Positions 556-63,400 of a stretch of DNA of 64,000 nt are shown here, piece by piece (the first letter of the stretch is position 1; each line of letters opens with the position of its first letter). Made by a program: the position numbers and the translations under genes. Below the pieces are notes generated by a model. That model was not told the DNA's origin. It worked only from the letters and a program-made list of their open reading frames with translations, and searched no databases. Source of the stretch: Deuterostichococcus epilithicus (Eukaryota > Chlorophyta > Trebouxiophyceae > Prasiolales > Stichococcaceae); NCBI GenBank assembly GCA_033439295.1, contig JAVTLE010000008.1, forward strand, positions 558,001 to 622,000, given 5' to 3'.

Positions 556-696
556 CCTGCTACCTTTCTGGTAGACTGCGGCGCCCAAGGCAACTTCGTC
601 AACGCCGCATACGCCCGACTTCTCGGACTACCGCTGGACAGCACCCCGGGATTCAATATCATCCTAGCAGACGGCTCCAAGCGCCCCTGCCAAGAA

Positions 697-14888: not shown

Positions 14889-17800
14889 TCACGACATTGC
14901 CAAGCCGGCGCCCTGCAGCAGCGCCTGCAGTTGCTGCTGCTCTGTTAGCGACAGTGCCACAGAGACGCGGCCCGGCAGCGTGCCGGGCGCCGCCGCCGCG
15001 GCGCCCCCCAGCTGCTTCGCCAGGAAGGCGCCAGCGTCTGGAACTTCTGGCAGGGGGTCCCGCTCTGGCTTGTGTGCGTTGTGAAGCTGCGCATATGCCG
15101 CTGTGTACCCTGCATGTCGGTTGTCGTAGTCACTGATAGCGCTTTCAAGTGGGGAAATACCCTGGACAGGTAGTGACACTGAGCGGCACGGTGCAGATAG
15201 ACGCTCGGTCTTGTGCGACATGGTTCGTCCATGCAACTTACGGCAAATGTCCAGCAGAGCTCCGCCTGGAGCTCTTCTGCAGCATCACCGCTCGGCTGCT
15301 GCCGAGGAGCGAGGCAAGCCACTACCAGCATGGCGGTGCGAGCGGTTTATCACATGCTCGCACCTGTGTAGTCCTCGATGTCGACGATGTCGTCGTCTGG
15401 GGAGGCGGCGCCGCTGGCGTCCTTGCTGAGGGCTGCCAGGGCGCACTGCAGCAGGCTGCCCCACAGCGCCGCGCTGCCTGCCTCCTGCAGCCGCGGCACC
15501 TGCGTGGGTGGCAATCCGGGCGTGATCGACGTTAGCCGCTGCAGAGCAACGCCAGCTCCCAGCCGGGCTGCAGCACCGAGCCATTGCCGCGGGCGAGGTT
15601 GCAGCTGTAAGTTGTCATCGGAAACGATGGGCGGCCTAGAGGTCATGGGGCGCCTCACGGCAGAGCACACGAGCAAGAGGTGAGACTCGCCTCTGTAAGC
15701 AGGAGCGCAGAGGCTGCGGTTACGAGCCGCCGCTCGGTGTCGCCGCGCACCGCCGGCAGCGTGGGCACCCACACCGACTGCAGGATCATGTCGCTGAGCG
15801 GCGGTGCCGGCTGCAGCTTGTCGATGCTGCCCGTCACGGTGGCGCCGCCGTGCTTGCACACGAAGAAGGCCAGGAAGACGACAAGGCCGCGCTGATACTT
15901 TGCTGTCCGGGCGCTCTCCAGCCTGCAGAAGGAAAAAAGTAATGGGAAAGGTAAAAAGAAGACAAAATTGAGTTGTTGGTTTCTTAAGAATCTGTTTCCA
16001 ACAAGAAATGTGGAAAAACAATGTTTAACAGACACAAAGTCATCTTAATGAATTTAACACGCTGCTGCAGCGCTGAGGCAGAAACTGCTTCCTGGCAAGG
16101 CTGTGAACAACGGCCACACTGATGTCTGGTCGACAGAATTTCCATTAGGGACGAAAAGCCAGCGCTGCAGCCCGTACGCCTGCCGCACGCCTGCTGCTGT
16201 GCGCCGCTGTGAGGTGAAAGCCAGTTCCACAGACAGCTTCCAAGGTCCTGCCAGACAGAGCGTCCAGAGGGTGCTTGTCGGTCGAAAGCAAGTGGGAAGG
16301 CTTGCGCGCCTGCGGAAGAGCAGCGTCCAAATGGTGGGCAGGTAGCCGCTGAAGACGTCCAGCGGCAGGAACTCCATGAGGCTGTTGAGGATGAAGAAGC
16401 CCTCATGGTCGTGCGCCTTCGAGGCCAGCAACTTCTGGAAGACGCCCAGCACGCCTTCCAGGTGCCCGCCTGACACGATCTGCCCGGGCGCCTTCTCAAG
16501 GTACGCCTGTGCGGCCACAAGAGCAGCCCTGAAGGAAGCCCTTCCAAACCCCATGCGCTTTCAAAATGCCACTGCAGTCGACAAGCTCTTGCGGTTACTG
16601 CGGGCAGCCGGCCACAGTGAGGATGTCGAATCCTTCAGCAGTGCAAGTGCCAGCGCAGGAAACTGCTGCAGGCCTGCAACAGCCTGCTCTGCACAGTCTC
16701 TGCTCGCTGCCGGCGGTCAGAAGTGCACGAGAGCAGCAGGAAAGAAACAAAAGCCACCTCCGACAGCCAAGGTCACAGAACGCCAGAGGAGCAGCAGGAC
16801 ACCTGGAGCAGGCGCACGAGCGGCGGCACGTTGCCGGGCCGCTCCCAGAACTGCGGCGACAGCAGCGGCGGGAAGATCTGCAGGTACACGCTCGGCAGCT
16901 CCCCGGTGCGCAGCTCTATGAGCTGCGCAAAGATCTGGAACACATATGGGTGGAACTCCTGCACGTCCTCCTGCAGGGCATGTAAGGAAATTTGAGCTTC
17001 TGAAAGCAGTCACTGATATGCGCGTTTGATATGCACTGGAACTGCATAATAAGGCATCTGCTGGCCCGCCGGCGGAACAGCACTGCAGCCTGGTGGCAGC
17101 ATTCTGGCACAGGGGGCACGCGGAGCACGCAGCGCACGCTGGTATGGCCACGCGTCACGCCAAGTAGACCGGGATACAGCTACTTCATTTGAGTTGCACG
17201 AGCAGCAGCAAGCGCCCTTGCACGCACAGGCGGCACCCGCCTCTGTGAACAGCCTTTTCAGATGCTGCACTGCTGCACAATGTGTTGCTGCACCGCTGCA
17301 CGATGTGATGCGCATCCGACGGCAAGCAGCAAGGAGCAAGGGACGAACCAGTGCATGAATGGATGGGCGTCCGTCGGGTTGACGGAAGAGGACGACCCCT
17401 AATTACTCAATAGCTGACTTGCAAAGTCAGCCAACATGCAGAAAGTCAGCTAACTTGCAGAGGAGGCTCACCGACAGGACGACCTGGAAGGCGGGGAACA
17501 GCTGCTCCTGGAAGGCGTCCAGCATGGCGGGCTCGGTGGCGGTGCCGAAGCGGATGAGGGCCGCGACGCTCTCGAACAGGTAGTGGTTGAAGCCTGGCTG
17601 CGTCGGGTTCTTGCACACCTCCAGCAGCATGGCCGCCAGCATCTTGAGCGCCGCCGTAGCCACTGGCGCGATCTGCGGCGGTTGACGCTTTTGTGGAAGG
17701 GGATGGGGTGGCGGCAGCCATGGCAGCCTTGCGGGTTGGAGATTCGGGAGAAAGGCGTGAGCGGCTGTGCGCGTGGGAAGCTCATGCTGCAAGAGGCATG

Positions 17801-20800
17801 CTGCAAGACGTTGGCACTCAGCATTGGCAGGAGGCTCGCGCTGCACTACCGACCTGAGCAGACACTCGACTGCTCGCTGTGTGCTGGCCAGAGGTCCCGG
17901 CCCAGAGGGCGAACCCTGGACCCTGAAGCCACACCTGGGGCCCAACGAAGGCGAAGAGGCGCATGACGCACTTCATCAGGTACTCGTTTTCGCCGGACTC
18001 GGGCATTTTGAAGGCGCCGAACAAGCCGGTGAGCAGCGGCTCCAGCAGCGCCTGCAGGTCCGCCACCGAAAAGCGCGGCCGCCCCTCGTCCTGCATACAA
18101 CAGGATGATGGTTGTTAAGTTTAGGGTCAAGGGTGTGAAGGGGCATCGGAGCAGCGCGGCCGTTGCAGAATTCGGGTTGCAGACTGCGCTGGTCCCACAG
18201 GTGAGCGCCACTTGACCTGTCAGTAAAAGCCGGCGTCTTGACGTGCCAGCGTGGCCAGGCAACGTGACCGCGCGGTTGCCTCCATGCAAACACGGTCGTT
18301 GCTTGCGAAAGCGCACCTTAAGGGACAGCAGGCGCTCGATGCAGATGGCGGCGTAGGAGTGCACCACATTGCTGTCTGAGCCCAGCAGGCGCACGATGCC
18401 GGGGAACGCCGCGAGCGCGTCCGCCTTGGGGATCTGGGCCCGGAAGGTGGTCAGGAACTTGAGCGCGTCCGCCCGCAGCACCTGCGACTGCGGCACGCAT
18501 GCGGTCGACGAAGCGCGCAAGCCCGTGAGGGTGGGTGCGAGGTCCAGCTGCACCTGTCGCACGCCTTGCCAGCGGGCTCGCAGTGTCCGCTGACCCCTGG
18601 TGCGTCGCGGGCTCTGCACAGATGGCCCATCGGCGCGGCACAAGCTTGGCAGCAGCTGCCATGGTTAGGGTTTAGGGCGGTCCTGTCTGGGGGGCTCTGG
18701 GCATGCACCGACCTGGGTGGCGTCGGTCGACTGCAGGTCGGGCGCGACCTGGCTGCGGAAGAACTCCACGATGTTGACCAGCTCGTTGGTGGCGGTGGCG
18801 CCCGCGGCGGCGGTGCGCGCCCGCGCCGCCAGCGCGGTGACCAGATACACTGCGCAGTCCTTGGCCTGCGTGCGGACGGGTGAGAGTTGGCAGCTGCGAT
18901 GGTGTGCCTGCCTCACTTGCTGTGGTCATGCGATGGAGGTGCGAGCCTGACAAGGGCACCACACCTCAGCTTGCTTCGTCCCTGGCGCCTGGTCAGCTTG
19001 GTTCGGCTTTATGGGCTCGCCGGCCTCGCCACGCACACAGGGCGGCCGATGCGGTGGCAGGGTTGCGAACCGGTCGACGTGCAGGAGGAGGCGGTACCCA
19101 CCTTCCAGGCGGTGGCGGGAGCCGCAGCGTACTCCTGCAGCATGCTGCCCACGTAGCCTGTGAACAGCTGTGTGACCTGCAGGGCGCACCAGCCAGGACG
19201 GCTTGGACATCCGCGTGGACATCCACTTGCAGCCTGGAAGTCGCCGCCGTGTGCCATCACAGGGTCCCCTGCGGCCTGTCGCCGCACGCTCGGCCCGCAC
19301 CTCGGCCGGGAACTTGTCGGTCAGCGCGCGCACGAGCTCGCAGGCGGCGCGGCGGCGGGTGTCGGTGTCGCTGCCCTCTGTGTCCTGTCGCACGTACTCG
19401 AGCCAGTTGAACTCGAACATTTCCTCCGCGTCGTCCCGCAGCCGCGTGTTGGGGATGACGATGTTCTCGCACACCTGGCGGGGGCGGGACATCGGGTCAG
19501 GCTTGAGCCTGGCGGCAGCGGCGGCAGTGCGGGCGTCTCCAGCACTGTAGGGCTGCCGGCGGTGCTTGCAACACGCACATCGCCAGGCAGGAAACCCGTC
19601 TCATCTTGCAGCTTGATGGCCGCCCCAAGGCGAGCAGTTGGATGGGCCAGGCGCGCTGCTGACCTGGCGCAGAGCGTCCTCATTGCGGAAGAGCTGGTGG
19701 TGCACGCTGCGGGCGACGGTAGTCAGGAAGCGGATCGCGTTCATGGCCAGGCCGTCCTGCACGCGATGGCACCGGCTTGACGTCATGAATCTGCTGGGCT
19801 CCCAGTTGCGAGCGGCGGGTGCCATCTGCTAATTCGCGTATTGCAGCTGCAAGCTGCGGGGAAACTCTGCGCCATTGGCAGAATCGCCGCACGTTCTAGG
19901 AAGACTATCAAGCAAGCTGACACACCACACTGCACGAGTGTAACAAGTGCTTCCGACCAGCCAGCAGGGCTGCACGAATGCCCAAGGCTCCCTCTGTACA
20001 AAGACTTCTGCCCTGCCATTCCAAATTGCGTGTCATCCAGGGTTTAAGGAGCTGAAATGCTCGGCCGCCCACCTGGCGCGGTTCCAGCGTGACCTTGGTC
20101 AGCAGCACCCACACGTCCTGCACGAACGTCTGCAGGTACTTTGCAAACTCCTCCTCGTTCATGCCCATGAACAGGTTGGCGTTGGCCGCCACCGCCGCCT
20201 TGGCCGCGTCCAGCTCCGTTTCCTTGTCCGGGTCGCCGCCGGCCGGCGCCGGCGCCTCAAAGGTGAGCAGCGTGTGGAACTCCGCCATCCACGCGTCCAG
20301 CGTCTTCTCGAACTCCTGCAGGGGCGGCGGCGGGAGCAGTCGCGCTGTCCATAGGGGGGAGCATTTGTTGAGGGAGCAAACGGACGCAGCATGCATGACC
20401 AGGCATGCCCGCAGCCGCGGCCCGTGCTGCACCGGTGCCATTGAGCCGAACGAGCCCAGCGGCCGGCTGTCCGAGTCCTTTCGCTGTACCATTGACAGCT
20501 GGCGCTCGTCATGCAGGGCTGCAGCCACCCAGCGCAGCGCCGCCAAAATATTCCTGATATATATGATAGAACTTGAAAATTTCGATTTTTCCCACCTCGG
20601 TGAGGCCGGGCGAGTTGAGGGAGTAGAACACGCGGCACGCCAGGCGCGCAGATGACAGCAGGGTGCGCAGCGCGGCGGCGTCGCCCCCGGCGGCGGCCGC
20701 CGGCAGCGCCGCGGTGACACGCTGTAACGCCGCTAGCAGCGGCTTGACCGCCTGCTGGCAGTACTCCAGCTCGTTCGACAGCCCCTCCGTCATGAATTGG

Positions 20801-21884: not shown

Positions 21885-22735
21885 TCCGCTGCTGCAAGCC
21901 ACCCTCAGCGCATCTGCTGGTGAGATGGACTTACAAGGAGTGCACAAACACAGACACAAATACAATGGTCTCACGGCACAGCGGACTGTGGCAAGCGCAG
22001 CTCAGCTTCGAATCGGTGCACTTCAGCTGAGGGATTTGTGAAGGTTGTTGAGAAAACAGCCACCTTGACGACCCGGCGACATTTCTAAGATATATCTCAG
22101 GTTCCCGTTAGTCACTCAACAGGACAGGAGCTGCAGTGAACCTACAGATGAAACGGTGCCAGGCCGCCTTGGAAACATGGTACGGTTGTTCATTACTGCA
22201 AAATCCTGCTTGCAGAGGTGCTGTGCTTGCAGATCAGGCGGGGTGAGCGCCTCCGCACCGTTTGGAAGGTTCGGCCAGCGGCGTCTCCCGTACGCAAGCT
22301 GTGCGGGTAAGGCAACAGCGTCGGCGGGTGCAGGTACTGCGGCGCTGATCTGCGAGCGACTTGATCCGGCCTTCGGCAGGGGGTTGCGGCAGAGATCCCT
22401 TGGCTGTTTCCTCCCGTCATGCGGCGCAGTCAGTCAGAGAACCTGTGTTTGGCCGGTCACAGCTCCTGACGACCGCGGTGCAGCGACCGCGCCACGGGGG
22501 CGACAGACGATGCGCAAGCTCCGTGCTTACTGGTCACATACACCGCTGAGTGCTGCCGCAGCCTGCGACGCCTTGAACAGGCCTAGATTTGCTCCTCATG
22601 TGGTACAGTACATCCGGGTATTGGCCTCGGCGGGTTGCCATGTTCTGGCGCCTTCAACCCGATGTTTGCGTCGGCGCAGGATTATGCATGCCAAGCTGAT
22701 CTTCCATGCAAGCGGCCTGCAGCATCCTTGTGGAG
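21885..22735. promoter_or_regulatory. divergent intergenic region CSE1 / membrane protein
   Basis: About 850 bases separate the CSE1 start (-) from the first ATG of the + strand membrane protein gene. It should hold both promoters and 5' leaders. I see no clear TATA box or RNA gene. A long open frame at 22156-22767 has no recognisable content. Confidence 0.45.
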
Positions 22736-30200: not shown

Positions 30201-33200
30201 GCCCCCTCCTGCGCTTCACGGCAACGGGGCACTGCGTCAGCCAAAGGAAACCGTAGTGAAACACATGGTTCGCGAGGCTGAAGGTGTCATTCGGGCTGGA
30301 ACTGCAGCCTGGCTGAAGATAACGGTAACACACTGCTGATCACGCTGCATACCATGGAGCAGTCGTGGCAACAGCAGGTCATTGCCGCACAACTCAGACA
30401 AGACAGGCAGCAATCGTGGACCTGAACGCAAGCTGCAGGAGGGTTGCAGCAGCAGGCTAGGGTGGGTGCCATGCAAGGCACACACATGCCTGGTCGGATC
30501 TGTCGCCGTCGCCCTGCTCGTCACCGCTGTTGCCGCCACCGCCGCCGCCCTGCGTCGCCGACAGCTGCGCGGCGAGCCACTCGACCTCCCGCCTCGCGGC
30601 CGCCGCCTCTGCCTGCGCCTGCCGCAGCGCCGCCTTATCTGCTGCGCTCGGGCCACCGCCGCCACTGCCGCCGCCGCCGGGCTGCCGTGACAGGTGGTCC
30701 GCTAGGTCCTGGGCGAATGCAGCGGCGTCGCGCTGCGCTTCCTCGGTGTCGGCCTTGGCCGCAACGAGGGCTGCCTCCAGCTGCGCAACGCGCTCCCCGC
30801 ACTCCCGCTCGAGCTGCAGCGGTCGGAAAACTGTCAAGGTTGACCCTTATACCTCCATAGGAGAGTCGGGCTCAGAGCGATCAGTCGCCGAGCCGGCTGT
30901 ACCACCCAGCTGACACAATGCTGGGACCTGGAGCTCTCTTTCTGCCGGCGGATGCAACTGGGGCCTGAAGCTCTCTTTCTGCTGGCGGATGCAATGGGCG
31001 ATGGCGTCGAAGCAGGACTGCACGGTCTGTGACTCCTTTCTGTATCGCATCAGTGTGGGCCAAGTAGATCGAAAGATTGCCTGACACATTGTACCGGCAT
31101 AAGCCAGTCCTTTCCCAGGCTGCACCAAACTGACGCCATCTGGAGCATGCGCACGACCGCTCAAGGCAATGGGATGCCCTCAGCCGGCTTGCCGGCTGAG
31201 GGCCGGCTTGCCAAAGGGACGTTGCAGCTCATCGCTGCCAGCATGAGAGCTAGCGCCAATTATTGCGAGCGTGTTGCAGCACGTGCACCAGCTGAGGCTC
31301 GTGGAGCGTCAAAGGACGAGCAGGAAAAGAGTCAGGACAGCGCCGAATGAAGGATCGGCTGCGCGCAACAGGCACATATGCCGAACGTTCCAGTAAATGT
31401 GCTGAACAACGCATTTGCAGGTGGCTGAGAGAGGCCCGCCCACCGCCTGGCGGTCCGGATCGTCGGGGGAGGAAGTCCAACCTCGCAGTCTCAAACTACC
31501 GAGCGTGTCTGATCGAGAGCGCGCTGCGTGTCAACTGTGACGGCAATATGCTGGGAAGGCATAGTACACACGGCATATGCATTCTCACCAGGGTGCCGGG
31601 GGAAGTCACAGGGTAGCAGGGTGCTGTACAGGGCAACGCCTAGGGCTGTCTTAATGTGCCCCTTGCAATCTGCGAGGGGTTGCAGCTGGCGAGGTTTGGC
31701 ACTCGAAGGAGCTACACGAACGCACTTGGGCCGCGGCCTCGTGGAAGCCGTTCTCCATCTCCGCGTTATCGTGCCGCAGATCCTCCACCTCGTGCCGCAA
31801 AAGCTCCAGTTCGACGTTTTCGCCGCCGCCGGGTGCTGTGGCGGCGCTGCCGTCGGAAGCCGCAGCCAACCGTGCCAGCTGCGCCTCCAGGCCATCTTTG
31901 GCAAAACGCAGCTGTTCCACCTCCTCCCGCACCGCCTCCAACTCTGCTGCAGCACAGCAGCAGCATGCGGCGTCAGGTGCTTGCTACCACTCTGGGCACA
32001 GCAAAGTTGGACGCTGAGAAATGGAGGACAAAACGTCGTCGAGCTTGCAGCGGTGCATTTGCAGCGGTCAAGTGCTCGCTTTCGGACAAGAAGAACGAGG
32101 TACGATCGGGCGCACCGGCTGCGTTGCTATCAGCTTCACGAGAAGCGCCCTCTGAGGAGGCGGCTCTGGCGGCCTGCTGCAGTTGCGCATTGGCTGACTC
32201 TAGTTCTGCGATGCGGGACGATAGACCCGCCGCCGCATCCCCACCGCTGTCTGCCAATGGTGAGCGCGCTGCCGCCGCCGCGTCCGCCGACACTGCCTCC
32301 TGCGCCGCGGCTGCTGCTGTCGCCTGGGCCAGCTGAGCCTTCAGCGACTCGACCACGGCTGCGAGCTCGCCCTTCTCGGCGCGCAGCTGCGCCGCCGCTG
32401 CCGCTGCCGCCGCCGCCGCTGCTGCCGCTGCCTCCGCCGCCGCTGCCTGCGCTGCCGACAAGTCGGCCGCTGGAGCGGAGGCATCTGCGTTCTGCTGGTG
32501 CTGAGACGCCGCCACCTTGGCCAGCAGCGCCACGTTGTCCGACCTGTGCAGTTCACGAGTTGCAAAGATGCTGCAAGCTGTGCAGGTTACGCTTGATGTG
32601 CAGCGCGAATGTCTGGGCACATGCGTACGGCGGCGAGATCTGGGAACTTACATTCTTCTATTCTCAACGAACATGCGACCTCCCTGATGTGACGAGGTTT
32701 TCCAAGGGCAAATTAGACAAGAAGGCAGCAGACATGGGTGATGCCAGCAAACGCACCGGAGGCGATCCAGCTCGTCCTGCGCCACAGCCAGCTTGAGGGT
32801 GGCATCATTGGCGGCAGCGCCTTCAGCCGCGGCGGCCGCCACCGCGCGCCGCAGCTGCTCGTTCTCGGATCGCAGCTCCTCGGCCGCCGCCTCCGCCGAC
32901 GCTTTCTCCTGCCGCAGCAGCTGCAGCTGCCGCGGCGCGGCGGCCGACAGCAGGCTCGGCGACGTTGGCGGCGTCACCGCTGCCGCCACATCCAGCGGCC
33001 CGTCCCGTGGCGGGCTGCCTGCCGGGCTGCTCGTCCCGATCGCGGAAAGCGTCGCCGCCGCCTCAGCATCCTCCAGACGGCGCAGGAGCTCGTCCCGCTC
33101 GGCAGCCAGGCGCCGCACGTCACCCTCCGCCCGCTGCAGGGAGGCCGCCATGGCGTCCGTGCGGGCGCCGGCGGCGTCCGTCGCCGGGCTGACGCCTGCC

Positions 33201-36200
33201 ATGTCAGCGCCGGAGCCGCCCGGCACGCCACGCGGCATGCCCATGCCCGGGATGACGGCCATGCGCCGGATCTTGTCCTCCACCGCCGCCTTGGCCTGCA
33301 GGGTCGACCGATGCAGACTTCAGCGTCGTCGACAACAGGGGGACACAGCTCGGCGCTTGGTTTGCAGTTTGTGCATTACATGTCCACATGCAGCCGCTGC
33401 TCCCTCCGCGGACTGCGGACCGCGATCAGGCCTGCGATCAGAGCTGCGGGAGCCGCGGGCACCGGATGCCACCGTAAGAGCAAGCACGCACGGCCGGCAA
33501 CATCCCGCTGACGAAAAGCAGGATGCAGCGCCCAGACGGTCCCAGCCCGGACCTTCTGCAGGCGCTCGTTCTCCCGCCAGTAGCGCTTGAGGGAGGACAT
33601 GTCCCCTGCGTCGGCGGCGTCGGCGCCTGTGCGGCTGCCCAGCTGGCTGGCCAGGCCCTTGAGCTCCCGCTCTGCAGCCTCCCGCTCCTCCAGCAGCTTG
33701 TGCATCTGGAACCGAGGCCAAGGATGTAAGATGAGTCATCGTGCGATTGGACATAGACAGTGTGATGAGGTGGCCACATGGTCCAAAGGCACTGCCGGTG
33801 AGCGCGCGGCGGCAAAGCAATCGCGGAGTGGTTCCGCACGCAGGGGTGATGCCATGGCAGGCGTGCTGTCTGTGGGCCGCTAAAGAATTCTGAGGCATCA
33901 CGACAGACTTGTCACGCTCCTACTCTAACAACACTCTGGACTCTGGACGAAAGCCTGTAAGCGGCGATTATGGAAAGCCGCACCTGCTCCTGCAGCAGGG
34001 CGAGCTGCTCCGGGGTGGGCGGGCCCCCGCGCTGGTCCGCCGGAATCTCCAGCAGGTCCTCCCAGCCGCCCGTGCCCCGCCGCCTCGCCTTCTCTGCTGC
34101 AGCGACGGTTTGAAGGTGTGGGTCAGAGGACCATTACACGTAGTACTCTTCCAGCACCGGTTCGCACTCTCTCGGCCTGAAATTGCGCTGCATGTGCATC
34201 ATCGTTGATGAGCAGCACACGAAGCCCGCCAACGCGACGTGGCGGCCGACCTGCACCAGGGCTGTCACACAAAGAGCTGCCTGTGGTGGGCGCCCTCTAA
34301 GATCCTGCTGCAGGTTGTTAGTTTTTAGATGCGCCAGCACCCGAGTTCATACCTGAGGCGGGCGCGGGCGGGGCGCTGCTGGCTCGCAGCTGCTCCTCCA
34401 GCTCGCCAATGCGCTTGCGGGCGGCTGCTAGGTCCTGCGATAGCGCCGCGGCGTCGGCGGCCGGCGCCGCCGCGGCCGCCGCCTCCTGCTGGTGCCGCAA
34501 CAGGTCCAGCTGCTTGCGCAGGATCTCTGCCTCCTCCTCCGCAGCTGCGACCCGCTGCAGGGGGGGCGATTTGGTTTTGGTCAGGGTAGATGCCTTCCTG
34601 GTGAGTGAGGTCATTTTGCAAGGCCAAATGCCGGGGCGACGCCCCCCAGGGACTGCGCAAATGTCGCGGCACGCAGGGTGTGTGCTGTCTTTCAAGCGTA
34701 GGCCATGACTTCGATGCACGGCAGCAGCTGTAAGATCCGGGAGCATGAAGGAGCGACATCAGGCACAGGGTCCGCAATGCAGCTCCAGCTCCAGGGTCTG
34801 AGCTGGGACCCATGCAGGACCCCTGCGGCGCAAAGCGCCTGCGGTGACGATGGGGGCGCACCGCGAGGCCTCGGGCATCCCAGGCGGCGTGCGACGGCGA
34901 GTCGAGCGCGCCGCTGCTGCCGGACCGCAGCTCCCACGGCCCCGCCTCGCGCGGCTGCAGCGACGGCAGCGGCGGCACGCTGTCGGGCGATGGCCGCCGC
35001 TCCGGGACGCCGTCCAGCGACAGCGGGTGCGCCAGCTCCTCCTCACCTTCCTCGTCCGAGGCCCCTGGCCGCGCCCCCTCCTGCATGCTGCCGGGCGCGG
35101 CGGCTGCGTTCGCTGCCGCTGCCACACTGACGGCCTGCTGCTCCGGCAGCGGCAGCTCCGTCGCCTGCTCCGGTCCAGGCGCCTCGCCCCCAGGCTCGGC
35201 CGCGTCCGCGGCAGCCTGCGGCACTGCCTCCATCGCCGCAGTCGCCCCTACGGCCGCCGCCGCTTCCTCGACCATTGGCCGTTCGGCAGCGTCCTTCGCC
35301 GATGCCGGCGGGCGCGCGTCGCCCGCACCCTCGTCGACGCTGCCCGACGGCGTGCACGGCTCGCTGCCGGAGCGGGAGCCGCCGGGCGTGGGGCCGGCGG
35401 ACTGGCTGACACCAGAAGAGACGGCGCCCAGTGCGGAGTCGAGGCTGCGGCGTGACGAGCGGCGGCTGACCGCTGCGTCGCTGGTGCCCACGGCCTCTGC
35501 CGCCTGCGGCGCCCCCGCAGCGACGTCGCCCGACTGCCGACCCAGCAGCGCCGACAGCTCCTCCGCCTGCTGCTCTAGCGACGCCACCTGTGTAATGACG
35601 CCACCTGTTCGCAGTTTTGAGTGTACTACAGCACCGATGCAGTGTGCAGCTGTCCCGGCCCTGGAGGGCATCACGAGGCGAGTGTTTCCGCCTGGATGCG
35701 CCCCCGCATGCTGTTTCCTTCTGGAGCAGCGCGCAGAGCTGAGCACCGCATGATCGTGGGCAGTTTCAAAACTTCCCGCCCTGAGGCCAGGCACAGGAAA
35801 GCGGTGTGGGAAGAGAGTCGCCCACGACGCGCCTGCTCTGCGAGCGCGGCGGACTCGCGGGCGGCGGCGGCTTCACCAGCGCGGGCCGCCTGCACCTGCT
35901 GCATGAGGGCCACCGCCTGGTCCTCCGCCGCCTGCGCCGCCTGTGCGAGGCTCGCCAGGTCGCCCTCCAGCTCCCTGACACGCTCCTCCAGATTCGCCGC
36001 CTGGAACAGCATGGTTCGGGTCGGTGACCGGGTCGGTGATGGCTGCCTCATTCCGGGTGATGCAAGGCCCCGAACAACTCTGCATGTCTTGAGCCCGTGA
36101 GCCTGACAACACCCGGAGGCAGCCCTCGCCGAGGAGAGGTCGGCCCTGGCCTGTGCGACTGGGTCGTGCCTGGCCGGTGGCAAACGGATTGCAGGTGCAC

Positions 36201-39200
36201 TCTGCGGCACATTGCAGCACCACAACCGCGTGTTGGACGACTGCAAGGCAAGCATGCAGAAACGAGCTTCGCAGGCACCTTGGCGGTGCTGGCGCCGGCG
36301 TCGGTGCGCGCCTGGTCGGCGGAGGCCTGTGCCGCCTCCAGTTGCAGGGGCAGCTCCGCCAGCTCCTCGTTGGCGGCCGCGAGCTCGCTCTCCAACGACG
36401 CCTTCTGCCCCTCCAGCCTCGCCAGCTGCGGGACAGAGCAGTACAAGCCTGCAACTGCAGCTTGAAATAGCATACAACTGGTGAACACATAAAGCTGCTT
36501 GCATCTAAGCTTGGGGTTCAGGTGTTGCTAAACCACAGCAGCTCGGACCAACACCCTCGTTGTGCATCTCCGCAGGCAGGCTGTGCATCTTCACCCAGGG
36601 ATGGTCATGCGCAGCTGTCTCCCAGCACCGACAAACCCCCCACGACCGAAGTTGCAAACACACCTGCTGCACGGCGGAGTGGCGCTCCGCCTGGGCGGCA
36701 GACAGCTCCCGCCGAAGCCGCTCCAGCTCCGCGGCCTTTGCGTTTTGGCTCTCCTGCTGCATCGCCACGTCGGACTGCAGATTCGCCTTCTCCATGTCCA
36801 GGCCCCGGATCTGCAGGGGCAGGAGTTGAGTGCGGGTGAGAACGAGTGGGAGTGTCGGGGGGACGATGCGCCAGCAGGAGCCGTCCTGCTTCTGTGTGCC
36901 CCCAAGCGAGGCATGCACGCCTGCTTCAAGACATCGGTTGGACCGCGCCCCAGATCCGCCCTGCCATCTCCAGAGCGCAGCTGCAAAATCGGCGTCAATG
37001 CCAGGAGCCCGAATGCGGTTGCAGCTGCGGCTGCGAGCCGGTGTCAGAGCAGGGGAGCCCCGATGACAGCTGCCGGCAGCCCCGCTGGAGGCGCGGTCGG
37101 GCGTGGCTGCTTCGTAGCAACCAACCTGGTTGGTCAGCCGCCCGATCTCTGCCTCTGCGGCGGCGCGCGCTGCGGCGGCTCGCGACGCCTCGCGGCGGGC
37201 TGCGGCGGCGGCCTCGACCTCCCGCGCATGCCGCGCCAGCACTGCCTTCAGGTCCACCTCCAGGGCGCCGCGGCCGGCCTCCGCCGCCCGCTTCTCCCGG
37301 CCCACCGCCTTCACCTGCAGCGGACGGGTTTGGCACGTTTGAAAGCGGTGTGCAATTGCACGCTCGGCGGCAGGAACAGTACATGTCACCTGAACGGAGA
37401 AGCACCACACGGTCGGTCATGCGGATTGGTAGACAGGTCAAAGGCAGAGGCACCTCAGCGCGCAGCTCGGCGGCCTCGGCGCCGATGGCGGCGTTCTGCG
37501 CCTGCGCCGCCTGCAGCTGGCGCGACAGCGCGTCCAGGTCCGCCACGCCGCCCGCGTGCCGCTCGATGTGCGACTGCAGGTCTGTCTCCAGCGCCGCCTG
37601 TGCCGCCAGGGTTCGGGGAGGTCACAACCGTGCCTCCGTGACGGACTCTGCGGCGGCCAGTGGTGCATGAGCGCGCAAGAATACGGCCCCCCGGCACGGC
37701 CAACGTCTGCCCACTTGGCGTGACCAGCTGGCTTTCTTGTTGCCAACAGTCATTGGTGGGCGTCATCGATTGATGACTTAGTGGAAGCTGCCGACAGATG
37801 AATGCAAAGGACGCTGGCAGAGTGGGTGGCAGGCGCCCTGCCTTGGCCTTCTCGGCCGCCTCCAGCTGCGAGGCAAGTGCGGAGGCCTCCTCCCGCGCCG
37901 CACTGGCCTCCGCCTGCGCCGCCGCCAGCTCCGTCGTGGCGCCCGACAGCTGCGCCTCCAGCGCGGCCCGCTCCGTCTGCGCGCATGACGACAATGCCGC
38001 CACAGCTCAGCCGCAAGCCTCCGAGTCCCTTGCTGCTGCCTTGCTGCTGCCCCAGCCCCCAAATCCCCCCCCGCCCCTCCCCCTTTGCTTGCAGCTGGTT
38101 GGTGCACCCTGGGCTGCGCCTTTGTGCGCTCCTCTGTGCCACGCACAGCACATGCGCTGGGAGGTCCAGCTTCCGGCGTTCGCCATCACGTCACGCGTGG
38201 CAGCAGCAGCAACAGCGCAGAGTTGCAAGCTCCCCACCTGCACGCGCTGGAGCTGGGACGAGGCGTCAGCCTGCGCCGCAGCCTGCCGCGCTGCATGCTC
38301 CGCCTCCTCCGCCAGGCGCCGCTTGGCGTCCGCCTCTGCCGCCCGTGCAGCCTCCAGGTCCGCCTGCGGGAATGGCAAAGCAGTCACGAGCTTGCGAGCC
38401 GTCAGCACACCATGTGGTGCCGTCTTGACGAGGAATCAGAGAGACGCCGACGGCTGCGGCAGGCGTGGTGTGCGCATTCAGAACGTGGGGCATTGCCCAC
38501 AGGTCGGGACGCTTCTCGCAGGTCGGGCATGCGGTCTCCTGAGACTCGTGCGAGATTTTGCGCCCTATGCAGCTAGCTATCCAGCCTGCAACCGCACCCG
38601 CAGCTCCTCGACGGCGGAGGTGTCCTGCTGCAGGGTGGAATTCTCCACATGCCGCAGCCGCTCCGCAAAGGCGTCCCGCTCCGCGCGCATCGCCTCCACC
38701 TTTTCCTTCGCCACCTGGCGTCAGCAAGTCAAAACTTCAGTATCCCTTGCAGCCTTTGCCACCCCACGCAGCGCCAGGGCAGAGCTTGTGCTGTGCCCCC
38801 CTGATTGCAAGGTGGTCCTTGGTCAAGGGCCGCTCGAGTGTAGCAGCGGCATCACCATGGCACGCGCGCCATGCTGCCCGGCGGTGCTCATGCAAGCAGT
38901 CATGCCGAGGGCAGGCGCGTGCCTGCTCGAGGTCGGAGTTGGCGGCTTCTACGCGCCGCAGTCGCTGCCGCAGCGCCTGGAAGTCGCCGCTGGCGGCGGT
39001 CGCTAGCTCGTCCTGCGGGTCACACCAGCATGCAACATGATGACATCGAGCTTCTGCGTACTGCCATGGTGGCATGCACCCCGTGCTGAAGCCGAACCGG
39101 GACGAGCTGCGCCCTAAATCTGAAGTGTGCCAGCCGCACCGTCTGTCCCTGGCCGCATTTTGGAGTATCTTCCCCTCGTCAGCTCACCTGCAGGCCCGCG

Positions 39201-41076: not shown

Positions 41077-43791
41077 CTACCGCAATGCAGCTTGCACTCG
41101 GCCCCGCGCATGCTGCAGCGCAAATGTGCGGCGCTGCCGAACGTCCAGGCAGCGGCTGATGCACAGCGGCAGCGCCAGCCCCAAGACCGTCAGGGCTGCA
41201 CCTCCCACTGGCACGCAGCCTCCCTGGTACGGGTATGCTGGATACACCTCCGCGCACATCGATGGCAGGGCGGCCATAAACAGTGCGTAGTGAAGTGTTA
41301 TTGCTGGCGCAAACCAGTGCCACCGCAGCTGCGTGGAGATGCAGGAAACTTCGGTGAGTAGACTGCAAACGACATGCGGTGGGGATGCAACATGGAGGGC
41401 TGTGCAGGCACGCACTGCCTGCGCTGCATTGAGCATGGGCAGCTGCAGCATCTCAGAGATCCTCACCCGGTAGTGCAGCGCGAGCCAGGACAGGCACATG
41501 ATGCCGGTGTGTATCGCAAACTGGTTGACAGAGTTGCGCTTTGCCTCCAGCTCGGGTATGCCCATCACAGCTGGGTTCATGACCAGCCGCAGGTAGATTG
41601 CCAGGAAGGCCCACGAAACGAGCAGGACAGGCTCCCGCCAGGCGAAGTATCTGCAAGCCACAAATGACAGCAGTCGCTGCTGTGCACACCCTGAGGCAAG
41701 GCCGCGCTCGGGTCTGAACAAGCTGCTGGCACGCGTCTGCATCAGGTCACCTACAGCAAGCATGAGTGGCCAGGTCTAGCCAGCACCGGTCGAGGCAGAA
41801 TGGGGCAGCGCAGGGCGGGTGCGCACCGGCGCGGCGCGAGCTTGAGCAGCAGCAGTTGAGCCGCGAACATGGCGGCCCAGATGAAGTGCATGGCGGCGAT
41901 CCAGGTCCAGCGGAAGCGCAGCATCATTGCGTATGGCGGCAGGCAGCCGCAGACGAGCGCGCTCACCAGCGCAAGGGCGACCACCAGGAAATCATGCTGC
42001 AGAAATGAGGAACAAGTTGTTTGAGTACCCACAATGCAAGCCGATCAGACTTGCCCTCTACAGCGGCCTCTGGCCCGAACTGCAGGGGAGGCCCTGCAGC
42101 ATTGATGGTGATGCAGCTGTTGCAAATGGAGCCCAACTTGGTGTGCAATTTGCTGGAGAGGTGAACGAGTCGGGTCCGACGACCAGCAGGCGGCACCGCT
42201 AGGACGCCTCACCGTCTGTAACTGCTGCGCCTGCCAGAGGGCAAACTCCCTTTCCGCGCTTGCGCCACTGAAAGCCAGCGTGATTTGCGACTGCTGCAGC
42301 TCTGCGTCCGAGAAGGTCACACGAGCTGCTGCTTTGGCGTCCGGTTTCGCTGGCTCGCCACTGGCGTCGCTGCTGCTGTCGCCCGCCTGCTGGCCACCCG
42401 CCAGTGGGTCTGCCTCTGCGGGGCGCGAAGCGAGCGCCTGCCCAGTGGTGCGCCGGACGGCGCCGCCAGCTGGTGTGGCAGGCGCTTGCAGATGCCTGAT
42501 GCTGTCTGCGAGGCGCTGGCTGCGCTGATCCCGCACAGGAATGCCGGCGGCAGAGCCGTCCTCGTCGTTCCTGTCCCGGCCAAAGTCGGTGGCGCCTGTT
42601 CACATTCACGAGTCAAGCTGTCAGCTATCAGGCAGCTTCCTGCACAATGTTTGACGTTTGAGGTGCCGCCGGAAAGCATGCTGTCCAGCAGGACAATCGA
42701 GGAAGGCTTGCCTGTGGCAGACTGTTCCCGGCAGCCATGCAGCTCCTGATCGGAGCCTGCCTGCAGATTTAAAGGCTGCAGCGTGAAGGACGGCACCACT
42801 GCCAGGCTGCCGCCGCCGTGCACGTCCAGAGCGTTCAGCGCCCGGTCGATGCCAGCAGCGATGACGGAGACCCCGGCAGGCAGAACATCGCCCAGTGCAT
42901 ACGCCAGGGTGGCAGCGTTCCTGCAGGCGTGCACAGAAGTCTGGATCCAATTGCTGCGCTGCAGAAGACCCACTGCCGCACTGTGTGCCAGCACATGCAT
43001 GCCTGTCACAGCCAGTCAGAGCAGAAGGGTTCCTACCGTGCGAGCGATGCAGGCGAGGTGTTGTTCAGGTACTGGACCACCAGGCAGCCGTCGCAAAACT
43101 CCTCCTGGTCCAGGGCCTCCGTCGGCGCTTGTACCGGCACCAGCAGCCGCACGGCGTCCAGCCGCTCGGGCGACGGCTCGAGCCTCGGCTCGCCGGTGTC
43201 TATGCAGCCGCCCTCCGGCGAGCTGACGGCGTCCAGGACCGAGAACCGCGTGGCGCCGTCCTCCAGCAGGTTGCTCGTGGCCACTAGCACATCGAGTTGC
43301 GCCTCCCAGGTTAAGCTGCATCATGGTTGTGAACACGTGCCGTAGGTGAACTACACATGAGGAGGCAGCAAGAACGAAGTTGCTGACGTTCGTTGCACAT
43401 GGTCTGACAGGAAGTCAGGACGTGTCAGCTTCATGTCCGGCTGGCTGAAGGCAAAAAGGACTGTGATGGCCTGCGTGAGCAGCAGCCGTCAGTCCACTGT
43501 GTGCTGGATAGCTGGAGCACTACACCTGATGGACAGCACGCCTGGGAGAAGGACCTGCGCCGCCCGCTGAAGCGCGGCTGCCGCTGTGGTGCCGTCGCCA
43601 TCACCTGGGTCGGGTACAACCGCGCGGGCCGGACCAGCGGCGCACTCAGACAGCCTGCGTACGAGGTTCTGCGCAAACGAGGCTACATCATTCATGTGAT
43701 CGCTGCGAAGCCGGGGCTGCAAGGCGTCCGAGGTTTCAAGTAGGTACAATTGCGTGAGCTTGTCGTTGCACCGCAAGTCGTCGCCGCAAAT
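41077..43791 (-). CDS. multi-pass membrane protein of unknown function (paralogue B), 5' end unresolved
   Basis: Seven exons join in phase: 43555-43791, 43037-43302, 42761-42920, 42213-42524, 41827-41996, 41419-41650, 41077-41328 (at least 542 aa). The 41419 donor could instead be a GT at 41416, adding one Ala; the acceptor at 43302 is weak. The N-terminal half is soluble (SNLLEDGATRFSVLDA, RLLVPV, GCLVVQYL, LAYALGDVLPAG). The C-terminal ~220 residues hold about six hydrophobic helices (VVALALVSALVCG, FIWAAMFAAQLLLLKL, PVLLVSWAFLAIYLR, HTGIMCLSWLALHY, APAITLHYALFMAAL, GAALTVLGLALPLCI) and end in a basic tail. It shares at least four intron positions and phases with the + strand gene at 22736-26369. 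No ATG was found in the first exon, so exons above 43791 are missing. The 42761 donor is GC. Function unknown. Confidence 0.65.
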
Positions 43792-46861: not shown

Positions 46862-49800
46862 ATGTGGCGCGCCAGCCACGACGTGGCGCTAGAGCAGGAG
46901 CCGCGGCGGTGCCCGCACACCCGGGGCCGCTGGGCGGTGGTGGGCGTGCTGCTCGTCCTGTGGGCATGCGTCAGCTTCACGCTGCAGCGCGTCAACATCC
47001 ACCCGCTGGACTCGGCAATCAACCGCTTCCGGCATTCTCGCACAGGTAGGTTTCAAACGTACAGCTGGCGCTGCTCCCCTGTCACTGCAAGCAATAACCG
47101 CACATGGGACGCGTTGCTACATTGGGTGCTGATATATGCTGATGCAGAACGGTGCAATAGCTGTTGCTCCGCTATCATCGCGGCAGATGGTCGCCTCTCA
47201 CAGTGGCCGCCGCCGATTGCAGGGGAGGTCATCGCAGTGCGTGAGGGGGACGACATCGCAGCAATCTACGATGTGCAGCCTCTGCAGCCGGGGGAGCAGC
47301 ACCCTCGGGCGGCGTTTGTGGTGCTGGCCCGCAATCAGGATGTTGACGGCGTGGTGACGTCCATGCGGCGGCTGCTGCGCCGCTTCAACAACACAGAGAC
47401 CAGGTCAGCTCGACGGGCGCGCTGCTCATTTTTGCAGTTTGAACGGCTCCAAAACAGCACAATGTGGACCATCTGGGCGATATGTGCTGGCCACTCTCAG
47501 TTGTGTCTCCAGGCAGGTGGCCCTGCTGACGGGGTGCTGCACCATCTGCACTTGCACAGCACTGTGGAGAGACATTCTCAGTTGGTGTCTCAGCCTGCTG
47601 GGAACGTTGGTGGTGAATCCTAGGTATCCCTGGGTCTTCCTGGATGACGGGGAGTTCAGCGAGGCGTTCCGCAATGCCACCACGGCAGCGGCGGCGGGGC
47701 CGACGCGCTACGGCCGCATTCCAGCGGAGCACTGGGGCTACCCGTCCTGGGTGCCGGAGTGGGCAGCGGCCAAAGCGCGCGAGCGGCAGGTGGGCTGCTA
47801 CCTCGGCAGTGCCTCTTCCTCCATGGGCTGCTGCACCGGTGCTGGGGGGCCTGCGGCGGCATCTCGGCAGCAGCAGCGCAGCGCATCCGGCTCGACGGCC
47901 ATCCCGAAGCGCTGATGCTGCAGCCGGCATCAGCGACTCAAGCGGGCGGCTCGTGCAGCCGCCATGTCTGTCACGCGCTCAAGAGAATGCGAGCATGGCA
48001 AACCTCACAAACCCTGGCGCTTCGTCCCTGCTGCAGGTTCGCGCGGGGGTGCTTTACGGGGGGCGGGAGTCGTACCACCACATGTGCCGCTACTTCAGCG
48101 GCTTCTTCCAGCACCACCCGCTGCTGGCGGACACAGACTACTACTGGCGCGTCGAGCCCGACGTCCACTTCTACTGCGACCTGGCCTACGACCCCTTCCA
48201 CTACATGCGCCAGCAGTGCGTCTCCTCGCTGACGCAGCCAGGCCCTGCAACACGCTGCACTCAGTATCCCTACCTTCTGCTGCAAATTCTCAAGGCACGT
48301 GTGTGCTTGCCGGGAGGCACTGTCTCCAAGGCCGCCTGCTGTGCATGCGGCTGCGGCTGCGTCACTGCAAGGCCGGCCGGCACTTTTGGCGGGGCCACAC
48401 TGCTGGCGCACCAGCAGCGCGCACTCCGACCAACACTAGGTTTCGTGCCGATGCTGATTCCACCCGCACTGGTTCCGCTGTGCAGCGGCGTGAAGTACGG
48501 CTTCACGCTGGCGGTGCTGGAGGGGCCCAAGACCATTCCCACCCTGTGGGATGTGACGCGCGACTTCATGGACGAGCGCCCAGAGGTGCGGCGCTTTGAG
48601 ATTTTGTATTTGGCGACATGTCGTTGCTATGGTTCAGGCGATGTCCAGATTGTCGGTGCACGCTGCTGCCTGCCCTGTGCGTCCCGCGACCGTTTCAGCA
48701 CGCTCCAGGCGAGCTTCGGTGGCTTGCATGTTGAGTTGTTGTCCAGTGACACCGAGCGCAGCCGCCCATGCCGCCTGGTGCACATTCTGCAGCTGGTGCC
48801 AGAGGCCAACCTGCTGGACTTCGTGACGAGCCCGGACGGGTCGTACGACCTGTGCCACTTCTGGTCCAACTTCGAGCTGGGCGACCTGCGCTGGTTCCGC
48901 TCGCCGCAGTACCAGGCGCGCCTCGTGACTCGCAGCCCTCCTGCCGCGCCTTTTGCCCGGAATGCCCCCCAGCTGTCCCGTGTCGGTGCACTGCACCGAG
49001 GACGGCCCTGGGCTCCGGCTTTGCGGCCGACATGCGAAGGTGTGCCCAGGTGCACCACCTGCTGTCGAATGCGCCTGGCGCGGTCTTAGGAACCATGACC
49101 TCTCCCTGTCCAACCTGACATGGCCGTGCCGGGGCGCCACATTTCCAGGCACAGCGCGGCAGCGCAGAGGCGCTGTGCAGCCACTGGTGCCCTCATCGCG
49201 CAGAGGCCGCGCAGTCGTGGGATGAGCTTCGGTGATTGGTGTCACTGCTGCGACATTGCAGGCGTACTTTGAGCATCTGGACCGGACTGGCGGCTTCTTC
49301 TATGAGCGCTGGGGCGATGCGCCGGTGCACTCCCTCGCAGCCGTCATGTTCCTCAATGCCTCCGAGGTGCGCTGCGCTGAATGCAGCGTCCCTACCCACC
49401 TACCCATCACTGCACCCCCGCCACATCTGCCTTGTTGAACAGTCTGCTGGCCCACCACAGCACATCCAGCGCGTGCCGACCTGACTGGGCCAATCCCGCA
49501 TCGCCTGTGCAGGTGCACCACTTCAGCGACATCGGGTACCGGCACAACAGGTGCGGCCCTCTGCAGGCGAACCCTGCACCCTGCACCCTGCCCCCTGCTG
49601 CAGTGTTTGCAAACGCCTCGCTGCAGATCAGACGGCGCACTGAGCAGCCGCTGCCCAACGTTCTGGACCCGCCGCCCGCTGACGCTGTCAACTCTGTTGC
49701 GTGTGTGCGCAGCTACACCAACTGCCCAGCCGTGAAGCGCAACAACTGCGACTGCGAGGCGGCGTCGTCAGTGGACCAGCATGTGCCGGCCAATTCCTTC

Positions 49801-59340: not shown

Positions 59341-60432
59341 TCTTATGTGTCGTTTCAGATGACCATTGTACAATGCAAGCTTAGTTGCTGTACTTGTCGG
59401 GGTTCCGAATTCAATACACGCAGTTTTCTAGTCTTCACTCTGACGACATTTGCCAAGGACGGATCCACAACGAAGCTGCCGCAAGCCAATCCGAGCCTCG
59501 ACCTAAGCGACTGATCGCTTCTGGATCCGAGGAGGGTTGTGTCTAGTTTCCAGCCTCGTACGCGGTCGTACGGCTTGTCGGCTCGCGGCTGTGTGCCAAG
59601 ACTGTGATCAGCCGTAATAAGCGATCCCGCAATACTGACCGTGCAGGCAAGGTAGTGGCAAGATGCTAACCTCTCAGCTTTACAGAGAGGCCGGGCTTGC
59701 CGGTCTCTTGAGGAACAGCGCGACAGGCCCTGCGGCCGGAACCCCCTTCATCCCCAGCCCACGGTGAGAAAACACTTAGATCGCACATTGGCAGGAAGAT
59801 CTCGGTGCTCGAAGCAGCCGAGGCAGAATCGCGACGGGAGTGCCGCTTCTGAAGCTGACTTCTGAATCTAGATCCCCCTTCGCGTCCAATAGGAGCAGCA
59901 AATTCTGAACTAGACTGCGGCATGGTCAAAAGGGTTTCAGGCAGTTGTGGCACATTAGCAGCGCCGGCCAGATGCAACTCGTATATCTTCCACACAATAA
60001 ACCCCTGCTGCGCGTAAATCATTCGTCGAGCCTGTAGATGCGGCCTTTAATGTACATTCGTCGCACGGCCATTGGCATAGCGCCGCGGTTGTGGAAATTT
60101 TCTCACATTTCAACTTCCGATGGGATTGAATCTGAAGTTCATATGGGCACGTAGAGTTTATTTAAAACTCATCCTTGCAGCTGCTCAACGCGCTCGCCGG
60201 ACGCTCCAGAGAGCTGCGAGCCCATGCTTGTGTTGTACCACGGCATGGGCGCCACCAATGCAAGATCTCAGATCTTGCACCTTCGTTCGAAATGGTGAAA
60301 GAGACTTGGCGGGGCGATTTGCGGCCCCACACATGCCCCAGAAAGCAGCAGGGGTGGTGGGGAAGAGGGGTGGGGATCTCCTCGCGTAGCCGCCTCTGCA
60401 TGTCCTCCTCCCTGCAGTCGGCCCCTGACGGC
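59341..60432. other. region upstream of the ADP/ATP carrier
   Basis: It contains no recognisable dynein or other exons. A 21-bp inverted repeat lies at 60259-60279. The carrier promoter and leader should lie here; an alternative upstream in-frame ATG (e.g. 60292) is possible for the carrier. Confidence 0.45.
60259..60279. promoter_or_regulatory. 10-bp inverted repeat upstream of the ADP/ATP carrier
   Basis: TGCAAGATCT and AGATCTTGCA face each other around one central C. The repeat lies about 150 bases before the chosen ATG of the carrier. It may be a protein-binding site or a hairpin in the leader; its role is unknown. Confidence 0.35.
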
Positions 60433-63400
60433 ATGCGCTGCTGGTCTTTGTGCAGCGAGGCGAGGCGGGCGCCCATCTTCGTGCCGGCGCCAAAGGAGAG
60501 CGCCCCAGCGGTGGAGAGCCCTTCCCTGGGCGGCAGCGAGAAGCAGGCCGGCGGCGCGCCGGCGGTGGACCCCTACAAGTGGCTCAAGGACTTTCTGGCG
60601 GGCGGCACCGCCGGCGCAGTGTCCAAAACTGTGGTCGCGCCCATCGAGCGCGTCAAGCTGCTGCTGCAGACGCAGGTGTGCGGAGCGCCGCTGCTCGCAT
60701 CTAAGATGTATCCACTGTCTCCGAGCATGCCGCTGGTCTCCGACCATGCCGCTGCACTGGGGCATGGCACTATGCTGTGCCTCAAGATCTATGCTTTGCC
60801 TCCGCAAGCTGAGGCTCATGAAGAGCGAAAGGCACTTCATGGCCTTGACGGTGGCTGAAGGGATCTCCCTGAGCTGCAGGACTCGAACCCGCGCATCAAG
60901 AGCGGCGAGATCCCGCCTTACACCGGCATCATCAACTGCTTCACCCGCGTGTCCGCTGAGCAGGGTGCGCACCTTTAGGGTTTGGGGGTTGGGAAATTTG
61001 TGTCTGTTGGCTTGGCAATGCCATTTTGGCTCGCTATGCTGCGGTGCCTCCCCTTTGCCCGTCAATCATTTGCCGCCGCCTGGCATTGCCGCGCCACGAC
61101 CGACTCCCCTGGCGCCCTGGCTGCAGGCACCATCTCGCTGTGGCGTGGAAACCTGGCGAACTGCATCCGCTACTTGTGCGCCCTCTGTTCGCTGCTGCCT
61201 GACCACCCACGATGCCTGCTCGCTCCTGAAAGGAGCCATTTGTGCATCGGTTCCAGTGCACGCACTTTAGACGGCCAGAAGTCATTGTTCAACAGCAATC
61301 CAACATGAACCCTTCCGCGGCATGTCCTGCATGCAGCCCGACACAGGCGTTCAACTTCGCGTTCAAGGACACCATTAAGGAGACGTTCCCCAAGTACAAC
61401 TCCAGCGTGAGTTGCTCCCAACACAAGAATGCCAGCCTGTTTGCCTCCTGGGTTTGAAACGCGGACATATATCACAACGGCTCGTGCCGCTGAGCTGCCG
61501 CTTTCGAAGCAACATGCGCACTGCATGGCAGCCACTGGCGCCTTTGCTCCTCCCTGTCCCGACTCTGTCCCTCCCTACTTCCTCACTGCCTCCGACTCAC
61601 ACCCTGCCTCCCACGCAAGCGAATGCCAACACGCCAGTTGCTGCGGGGGTGCAGACGGACTTTTGGAAGTTCTTCGCGGTGAATATGGCGTCAGGCGGCG
61701 CGGCAGGCGCCGGCTCCCTGCTGTTCGTGTACCCGCTGGACTTTGCGCGGACACGTCTCGCCGCCGACATCGGCAAGGACATGGCCAGCCGCGAGTTCAA
61801 GGGTGCGCCGCCACGAAATTCGATGCCACACAGTCCTCCACACTCCGATTTGCGCCGATGCTTATGCCGCAAGGGCTGTGGCAGCGCAACATGCACTCCG
61901 AATTGGTCTCTGCAATTGTTGCATTGTTAGCCAGCGCAACCGGGTGAGCCTGATGACGACAGCGTAATGCGGCAACCTCTCCTTTGCCCAGCAACTGTCA
62001 TCTCGCGACCTCGTGCATTGACGGCATACATGTGCAATTGGTGAGGCATGTTCGTTGGTGGGTCGCAGGGCTGTGGGACTGCCTGTCGAAGACATTCAAC
62101 CGCGGCGGCGTGTCGGCGCTGTACCAGGGCTTTGGCGTCAGCGTGCAGGCGAGCAGATGCTACACGGCTGTTCTGCGTGACTGCTCCAGTCCGGAAACCT
62201 GGGTCCAGGGGTCAGGCTGGAGCCGCTCTGCCCGTCTGCCCGGGCATCTGCCGGTGCATTGGGCAACGTCAGGACAGCTGAAGGACTGAAAGGCAACGCT
62301 GGTGAAACGGAGCGCTCAGCAGGCGGGCTGGCGCCGGTCATAGACTAAGCCACAGTCTGACGTTATCTTTTGTGTGGCAAACGAAGTGATGCACACAAGC
62401 CCTCTGCTTGAAGCGTCCACACATGTGCTCGCCGCAGGGCATCATTGTGTATCGGGGTGCCTACTTCGGCTTCTACGACACGGGCAAGGGCGTCATCTTC
62501 GAGGACGAGAAGAACGCCAACTTCGTCGCCAAGTGGGGCGTCGCGCAGGCCGCCACCGCCGCCGCCAACATGATCGCGTACCCCTTTGACACCGTTCGCA
62601 GGCGCCTCATGATGCAGGCGCGAGCTCGAACGCAGGTTTTCGGGCAGAAAGCACGCTGGTTTAGCATGACGTGTGCCGAGTCACGAGCCTTCTTGGGTCA
62701 TGCGCAGCAGTGCCGCAGCACCTGCGCGGCGCTCGTTGCAGCCTGGGCCTGGGTGTGTCGCCAGGCTTTTGGCAGCTGGCCAGCACTGCTGCCCTTACGG
62801 CTACTCCATGCCATTGCATGTCTGCCAGGACCAGCACACCGTCTGCGCAGCATGCCATGTGCAGAACAGCTATCACTCAGATAGAACAGCTATCACTCAG
62901 AAAGCACTCGGAAAGCAAAGAGCTGGGTGGTATTGTTCACCCTAGGAGTTGATTTCATGTACGCACGAATCGCAGGCGGGCGGCAAGGAGAAGTACTACA
63001 AGAACACGCTTGACGCGTGGCAGAAAATCATTCGTGACGAGGGCCGCAAGGTGAACCGTTTGCAGCGCCTTTTGCAGCTTGCCTGGCCTTTTCTTATGAC
63101 CGTGCACACTGTGTCTACAGCAACAAACTGATTCCTTTCAGTACTGAGGCACGAGGCACTGGCTGGCAATTCTCCTCGTGGGAAGACGGGTGTAATTGGC
63201 GCATTGACACAGTCCGTATTTGGCATGCAGGCATTCTTCAAGGGTGGCTGGTCAAACATCCTGCGGTCTACCGGTGGCGCCCTCGTCCTCGTCATGTGTA
63301 AGTCACCCTGCTTCGCTGCGTAGAACCTACTTGATCTGTGCCTTGCATTGCATTGGCCTGCCATCGTAAGCCTGCAGCCAGTGCGGCCACCTTGACTGTC

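Follow-up and report, generated by a model that had tools for sequence, protein, structure and literature searches.

A survey of introns that appeared in 2011 is reportedly the work of Iwata and Gotoh. In it, the GC-AG share is 1.3% among about 2.46 million introns and amounts to 39.6% in Aureococcus, 22.2% in Micromonas pusilla, 7.7% in Chlorella sp. and 2.7% in Micromonas RCC299 (PMC3033335, 2011). The U1 RNA has a canonical 5' end in Aureococcus, M. pusilla and Micromonas RCC299, and base modification or U1 proteins are proposed as possible causes in the first two (PMC3033335). In plants, the mean share is 1.2% according to another study (PMC6310983, 2018). As to Coccomyxa or the Trebouxiophyceae, our search of the open literature for GC-AG introns gave one general review only, and a report in print is still possible. 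Here, we analyse the introns beginning with GC in a 64,000-nucleotide stretch of Deuterostichococcus epilithicus DNA, called the window (bases 558001-622000 of contig 7), and in sampled stretches beyond it, which bear L-numbers such as L019 or L033; the genome searched comprises 46.8 Mb in 21 contigs.

The alga studied here is distinct from those surveyed. Among the best 120 of 583 relatives of its exportin-2 (CSE1), a metagenome protein is 72% identical over 78% of the length, the closest named protein is that of [Myrmecia] bisecta (61% identity), and the exportins of Coccomyxa, Micractinium and Chlorella vulgaris reach 57-59%; by these values the alga is most likely a trebouxiophyte. Like Chlorella sp., M. 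pusilla and Aureococcus, it combines a GC-rich genome (58-69% GC across the window, in 4 kb steps) with an apparently raised GC-AG share, which seems nearer to that of Chlorella than to that of M. pusilla, and its U1 5' end is ordinary, as in the three canonical cases above (PMC3033335). As in animals and land plants, whose GC-AG share is about 1.2-1.3%, the introns have an AG/GC donor, an AG acceptor and a C-A mismatch with U1 at +2, but they are apparently several times commoner here. The abundance of GC-AG introns in GC-rich algae is already published, and ours is one more such alga, with a share that appears moderately raised and an ordinary U1 RNA. Our results point to ordinary U2-type introns with C in place of T at +2, whose share is probably raised a few-fold above 1% by the GC-rich genome, with no special U1 RNA.

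One line of evidence for this reading is a homology test of individual junctions. Donors up to 120 bases and AG acceptors up to 90 bases from the model junction were considered, all 16 donor dinucleotides were allowed to compete, and only models with an open reading were retained, each being scored in bits against a profile of homologues. The profiles comprised 40 of the 120 listed relatives for CSE1, 59 of the 120 listed for the mitochondrial ADP/ATP carrier, two PDB sequences for the GT15 mannosyltransferase, and one or two PDB sequences for each of five genes beyond the window. These five were picked, for their recognisable solved relatives, from 29 predicted proteins of at least 230 residues; homologues were also sought for a Doa1/PLAA-like gene and a Na+/H+ exchanger. 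The junction test, which did not extend to these two or to the other predicted genes, covered 15 of the 24 junctions of the L030 model, 8 of the 27 of the L033 model and all of the 7 in GT15 except the first. A junction was taken as decided when the margin was at least 2 bits, a threshold chosen once the scores were known, and the 20 junctions below it were excluded.

The test was applied to 69 junctions from 8 genes and decides 49 of them: 39 for GT, 7 for GC and 3 for other dinucleotides (CA, AC, CG), these last being reported but kept outside the GT/GC set. GC accounts for 7 of the 46 junctions of that set (interval 6-29%). Within the window the proportion is 5/25, which is biased upward because its three genes were chosen for GC donors named by a preliminary description of this DNA. 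Beyond the window it is 2/21 (interval 1-30%), and the chance of at least two at a share of 1.3% is 0.03; the L019 gene was picked after the gene finder had already flagged its GC site, and this figure is therefore not fully blind.

All 15 junctions of CSE1 are won by GT (13) or GC (2, at exon ends 16310 and 15691), and so are the 9 of the carrier (7 by GT, 2 by GC, at 62148 and 62617). Six of the seven GT15 junctions were tested: GC wins at 48915 and GT at three, while the remaining two go to CA, at a site three bases away from a GT and with a margin of 2.9 bits, and to TC by 0.3 bits. Beyond the window, 8 junctions each were tested in the importin-beta, RPN9, Tas-like reductase and SEY1-like genes and 7 in AP-1 gamma, and GC wins at L019:2047 (importin-beta) and L033:106 (SEY1-like). 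At the five resolved GC junctions outside CSE1, the lead of GC over the best GT model is between 6.7 and 16.0 bits; at the two in CSE1, GT is absent from the six best dinucleotides, and hence lies at least 7.5 and at least 8.0 bits lower. Four of the GC junctions have support from alignments as well. There is no gap against yeast Cse1 at 16310, nor against the 1s4n and 7boo sequences at 48915; the segment GVSVQGIIVY at 62148 is uninterrupted in the six carrier relatives read, and at 62617 a GT alternative 18 bases on would add 6 residues present in none of the six. The preliminary description was therefore right that the CSE1, GT15 and carrier junctions are no annotation error, and that GC-AG introns occur in unrelated genes, to which two genes beyond the window are now added.

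Among the 20 excluded junctions, GC leads at L033:476, by 1.1 bits over TC and 12.4 over GT, and at L033:737 and L030:3340, by 0.3 and 0.6 bits and away from the model junctions; two others, in the SEY1-like gene after 2208 and 2296, gave no profile match. The three decided junctions won by neither GT nor GC would represent the error rate of the homology test which, spread over 14 wrong dinucleotides, would amount to well under one false GC.

The resolved GC donors are distinguished by their context. AG at -2/-1 together with G at +5 is found in all 7 of them as against 20 of the 39 resolved GT donors (p = 0.017), and their matches to U1 outside +2 average 5.7 of 8, compared with 4.3 of 8 for GT donors (p = 0.0004). 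Because GC donors exceed GT donors in both respects, C at +2 is found where pairing elsewhere is strong: of the 27 resolved donors that combine AG with +5 G, 7 have this C, and of the 19 others none. U12-type donors read ATATCC or GTATCC, and none of the 7 resolved GC donors resembles such a donor; a search for the U12 RNA was empty, but its controls were empty too, so that absence is not shown. We also observed that position +4 of donors in this DNA is mostly C (212 of 424 predicted and 16 of 39 resolved GT donors), giving CAG/GTGCGC in place of the more usual GTAAGT or GTGAGT.

To estimate the GC-AG share, we trained a hidden Markov gene finder on this DNA with GT as the sole donor and then allowed one other dinucleotide per run at a penalty. 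The GT-only version predicts 424 introns in 258.6 kb, with the donor consensus CAG/GTGCGC; it replaced a first training that gave 896 introns, far too many. With a penalty of 4 at AG-preceded sites, window included, GC is used 19 times, compared with a mean of 2.6 for the 14 other dinucleotides (at most 7 for CA and 6 for CT; GG 0, GA 1). In a run beyond the window, on 234.6 kb with four fresh stretches added, AG/GC is used 25, 19, 7 and 5 times at penalties of 3, 4, 6 and 8, whereas 9.5, 5.7, 1.8 and 0.6 are expected from the 14 decoys, the highest of which, CT, reaches 13 and 10 at penalties of 3 and 4. The same thresholds recover 74, 64, 44 and 29% of 126 AG-preceded GT introns. Scaled by this recovery, about 12-21 GC introns beyond the window stand beside 402 predicted GT introns, that is 3-5%, a share that may be exceeded because the predicted GT introns include false ones. 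Combined with the homology counts, the GC-AG share is, very roughly, 3-8%, which is an estimate rather than a count. It apparently exceeds the baseline of 1.2-1.3%, so that the earlier claim of an unusual abundance stands in kind but not in magnitude: the proposed share above 10% is not borne out by the estimate beyond the window, and the homology interval there is wide (1-30%).

Two other uses of the gene finder were set aside. Leaving +2 free was too noisy by itself, since other dinucleotides rose too. Viterbi training of the donor shares over 16 dinucleotides gave, in the window (n=117), GT 101, GC 8, CA 3, CT 2, CC 1, TG 1 and TT 1, and GC 25 and CT 26 of 425 beyond it; it was not used for the share because CT is not distinguishable from GC. 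We think that the CT excess is a CTG-codon artefact. These counts include one locus twice (L027 and L034 overlap), and L034 was removed from the later decoy count.

To account for such introns, a relaxed or adapted U1 interaction had been suggested. The genome contains 10 U1-like copies, 8 of them over the Rfam cut-off, and in 7 of these 8 the 5' end is the ordinary ATACTTACCTG, without a difference in the first 11 bases. In the remaining one (L007:1501-1662), a copy with several N that reads ATGCTTACCTG, position 3 alone differs within these 11 bases (G for A); its sequence would favour pairing with C at +6, which is the most frequent base at that position of predicted donors (174 of 424). 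The two weaker copies read ATACGTACCTG and ATACTTACCTG. The A opposite intron position +2 is kept in all 10 copies and replaced by G in none; an adaptation of the RNA is not supported. Both U6 copies found carry ACAGAGA. U1C, the other component whose inspection had been advised, was searched in three ways (PF06220, the human U1C N-terminus and the codon pattern of CDYCDTY) and not located, these exon-by-exon searches being weak (4 and 2 candidates scored in the first two), so no judgement on it is made; three codon-pattern matches were read as chance, and the gene may be split by introns. LUC7 matches at two places in the genome, and PF05971, presumably the METTL16 family, at one. A zf-U1 match resembles what we take, by eye, to be a WBP4-like splicing-factor gene (L027:2000), which itself seems to hold a GC-AG intron, CAG/GCGAGT, according to the gene finder and inspection by eye.

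The introns and donors claimed in the window are collected in Table 1. Each of the 12 coordinates does read AG/GC on its strand, as had been described. Of the 11 introns put forward, five are fixed by homology and three (38923, 37842, 35833) are favoured by the gene finder; 30490 is weakly favoured, 38586 and 42761 are without support, and the same holds for the possible twelfth at 41419. A gain of 0 is not a refutation because 15691 has none and is firm by homology. At 38586, the GT-only model chooses an in-frame GT donor, CGG/GTGCGG, 12 bases upstream (exon end 38598). A homologue search with the coiled coil of the kinase gave none, and the five GC introns claimed in its gene therefore stay unproved.

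Table 1. Claimed GC introns and donors in the window (slash, exon/intron boundary; homology values in bits as best model, runner-up, margin; gain in nats of the gene finder over its GT-only model)
Feature	Position	Strand	Exon end	Donor	Homology	Gain	Remark
GC-AG intron, CSE1/exportin-2	15923..16309	-	16310	CAG/GCGCGC	344.2, 339.7, 4.5	11.4	
GC-AG intron, CSE1	15500..15690	-	15691	GAG/GCGAGT	276.3, 270.8, 5.5	0	
GC-AG intron, GT15 (KRE2/KTR-like) mannosyltransferase	48916..49261	+	48915	CAG/GCGCGC	257.1, 252.4, 4.7	4.5	
GC-AG intron, mitochondrial ADP/ATP carrier	62149..62437	+	62148	CAG/GCGAGC	399.0, 392.7, 6.3	2.9	
GC-AG intron, ADP/ATP carrier	62618..62975	+	62617	CAG/GCGCGA	364.3, 359.1, 5.2	4.1	best GT 356.7
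Probable GC-AG intron, coiled-coil kinase gene	38715..38922	-	38923	CAG/GCACGC		8.9	
Probable GC-AG intron, kinase gene	37598..37841	-	37842	AAG/GCAGGG		9.4	
Probable GC-AG intron, kinase gene	35588..35832	-	35833	CAG/GCGCGT		6.3	in-frame GT-AG alternative by eye
Weakly supported GC-AG intron, kinase gene	30209..30489	-	30490	CAG/GCATGT		2.6	in-frame GT 6 bases on by eye
Claimed GC-AG intron, unsupported, kinase gene	38364..38585	-	38586			0	
Claimed GC donor, unsupported, membrane protein B	42760..42761 (first intron base, last exon base)	-	42761			0	
Possible twelfth GC donor, unsupported	41418..41419 (first intron base, last exon base)	-	41419			0	

The mechanism that we propose is a simple one. 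Substitution pressure of the GC-rich genome would convert T at +2 to C, and such a C would be tolerated only where the remaining U1 duplex bears one C-A mismatch; a special U1 RNA would be unnecessary and the share raised as in other GC-rich algae. Several points weigh against it. The introns are predicted here from genomic sequence, by homology and the gene finder. Three of the 49 decided junctions favour neither GT nor GC and, with 7 GC introns, neither AG alone (p = 0.13) nor +5 G alone (p = 0.24) is significant. Beyond the window, AG/CT reached 13 and AG/CC and AG/CG 12 each at the loosest penalty, and CT matched GC in the Viterbi-trained run. GC content alone predicts poorly, Micromonas RCC299 having 64.1% GC and only 2.7% GC-AG introns (PMC3033335). 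Finally, the failure to locate U1C leaves a protein change possible.

It is that last point on which a relaxed U1 particle would build, in which the RNA is ordinary and a U1C or LUC7 protein, or a modification of the RNA, accepts C at +2, so that GC-AG introns accumulate. The causes offered for Aureococcus and M. pusilla in the survey (PMC3033335) are of this kind. However, the weak searches do not show that U1C is absent, LUC7 is matched, and the GC donors still require strong pairing elsewhere, as ordinary GC donors would; we regard this alternative as rather unlikely. Its more drastic form, with U1C lost or strongly altered or the U1 modification changed, and +2 hardly read where the U1 duplex is strong, appears less probable still. 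Junctions that are mostly misread, the true donors being nearby GT and the share near 1%, would account for the zero gains at 38586, 42761 and 41419, for the in-frame GT alternatives seen by eye at 38586, 35833 and 30490, and for CT decoys equalling GC in one gene-finder run; the bit differences between GC and GT at all seven resolved junctions and the decoy-corrected AG/GC excess beyond the window make this very improbable. Just as little can be said for GC donors retained as regulated weak sites. GC-AG introns are associated with alternative splicing in human and mouse (PMC7242645), but those resolved here break conserved regions of housekeeping proteins (CSE1, importin-beta, the ADP/ATP carrier), and the pairing that flanks them is strong rather than weak.

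Some further features were observed. The L033 stretch, at whose start lies the SEY1/RHD3-like gene, carries five predicted GC donors in 10 kb (106, 476, 3979, 4678, 7298), of which L033:106 is firm by homology and L033:476 favours GC. In the window, the gene finder predicts at 590-4020 (+) an open reading frame that, named by eye, resembles the region of a Ty3-type retroelement with pol, integrase and chromodomain; a related fragment lies near 5588-6243 (-). L012:1-10000 holds a long tandem-repeat reading frame with IDLPTLTLPTATLPT units and 72% GC.

These GC-AG introns have a practical consequence for annotation: GT-only models lose or shift exon ends here, which happened to ours in the CSE1 and carrier genes. 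As to their biology, our results add an alga in which the U1 RNA is ordinary and the GC-AG share apparently raised. They also suggest a simple, testable rule, namely that C at +2 would be confined to donors with both AG and +5 G.

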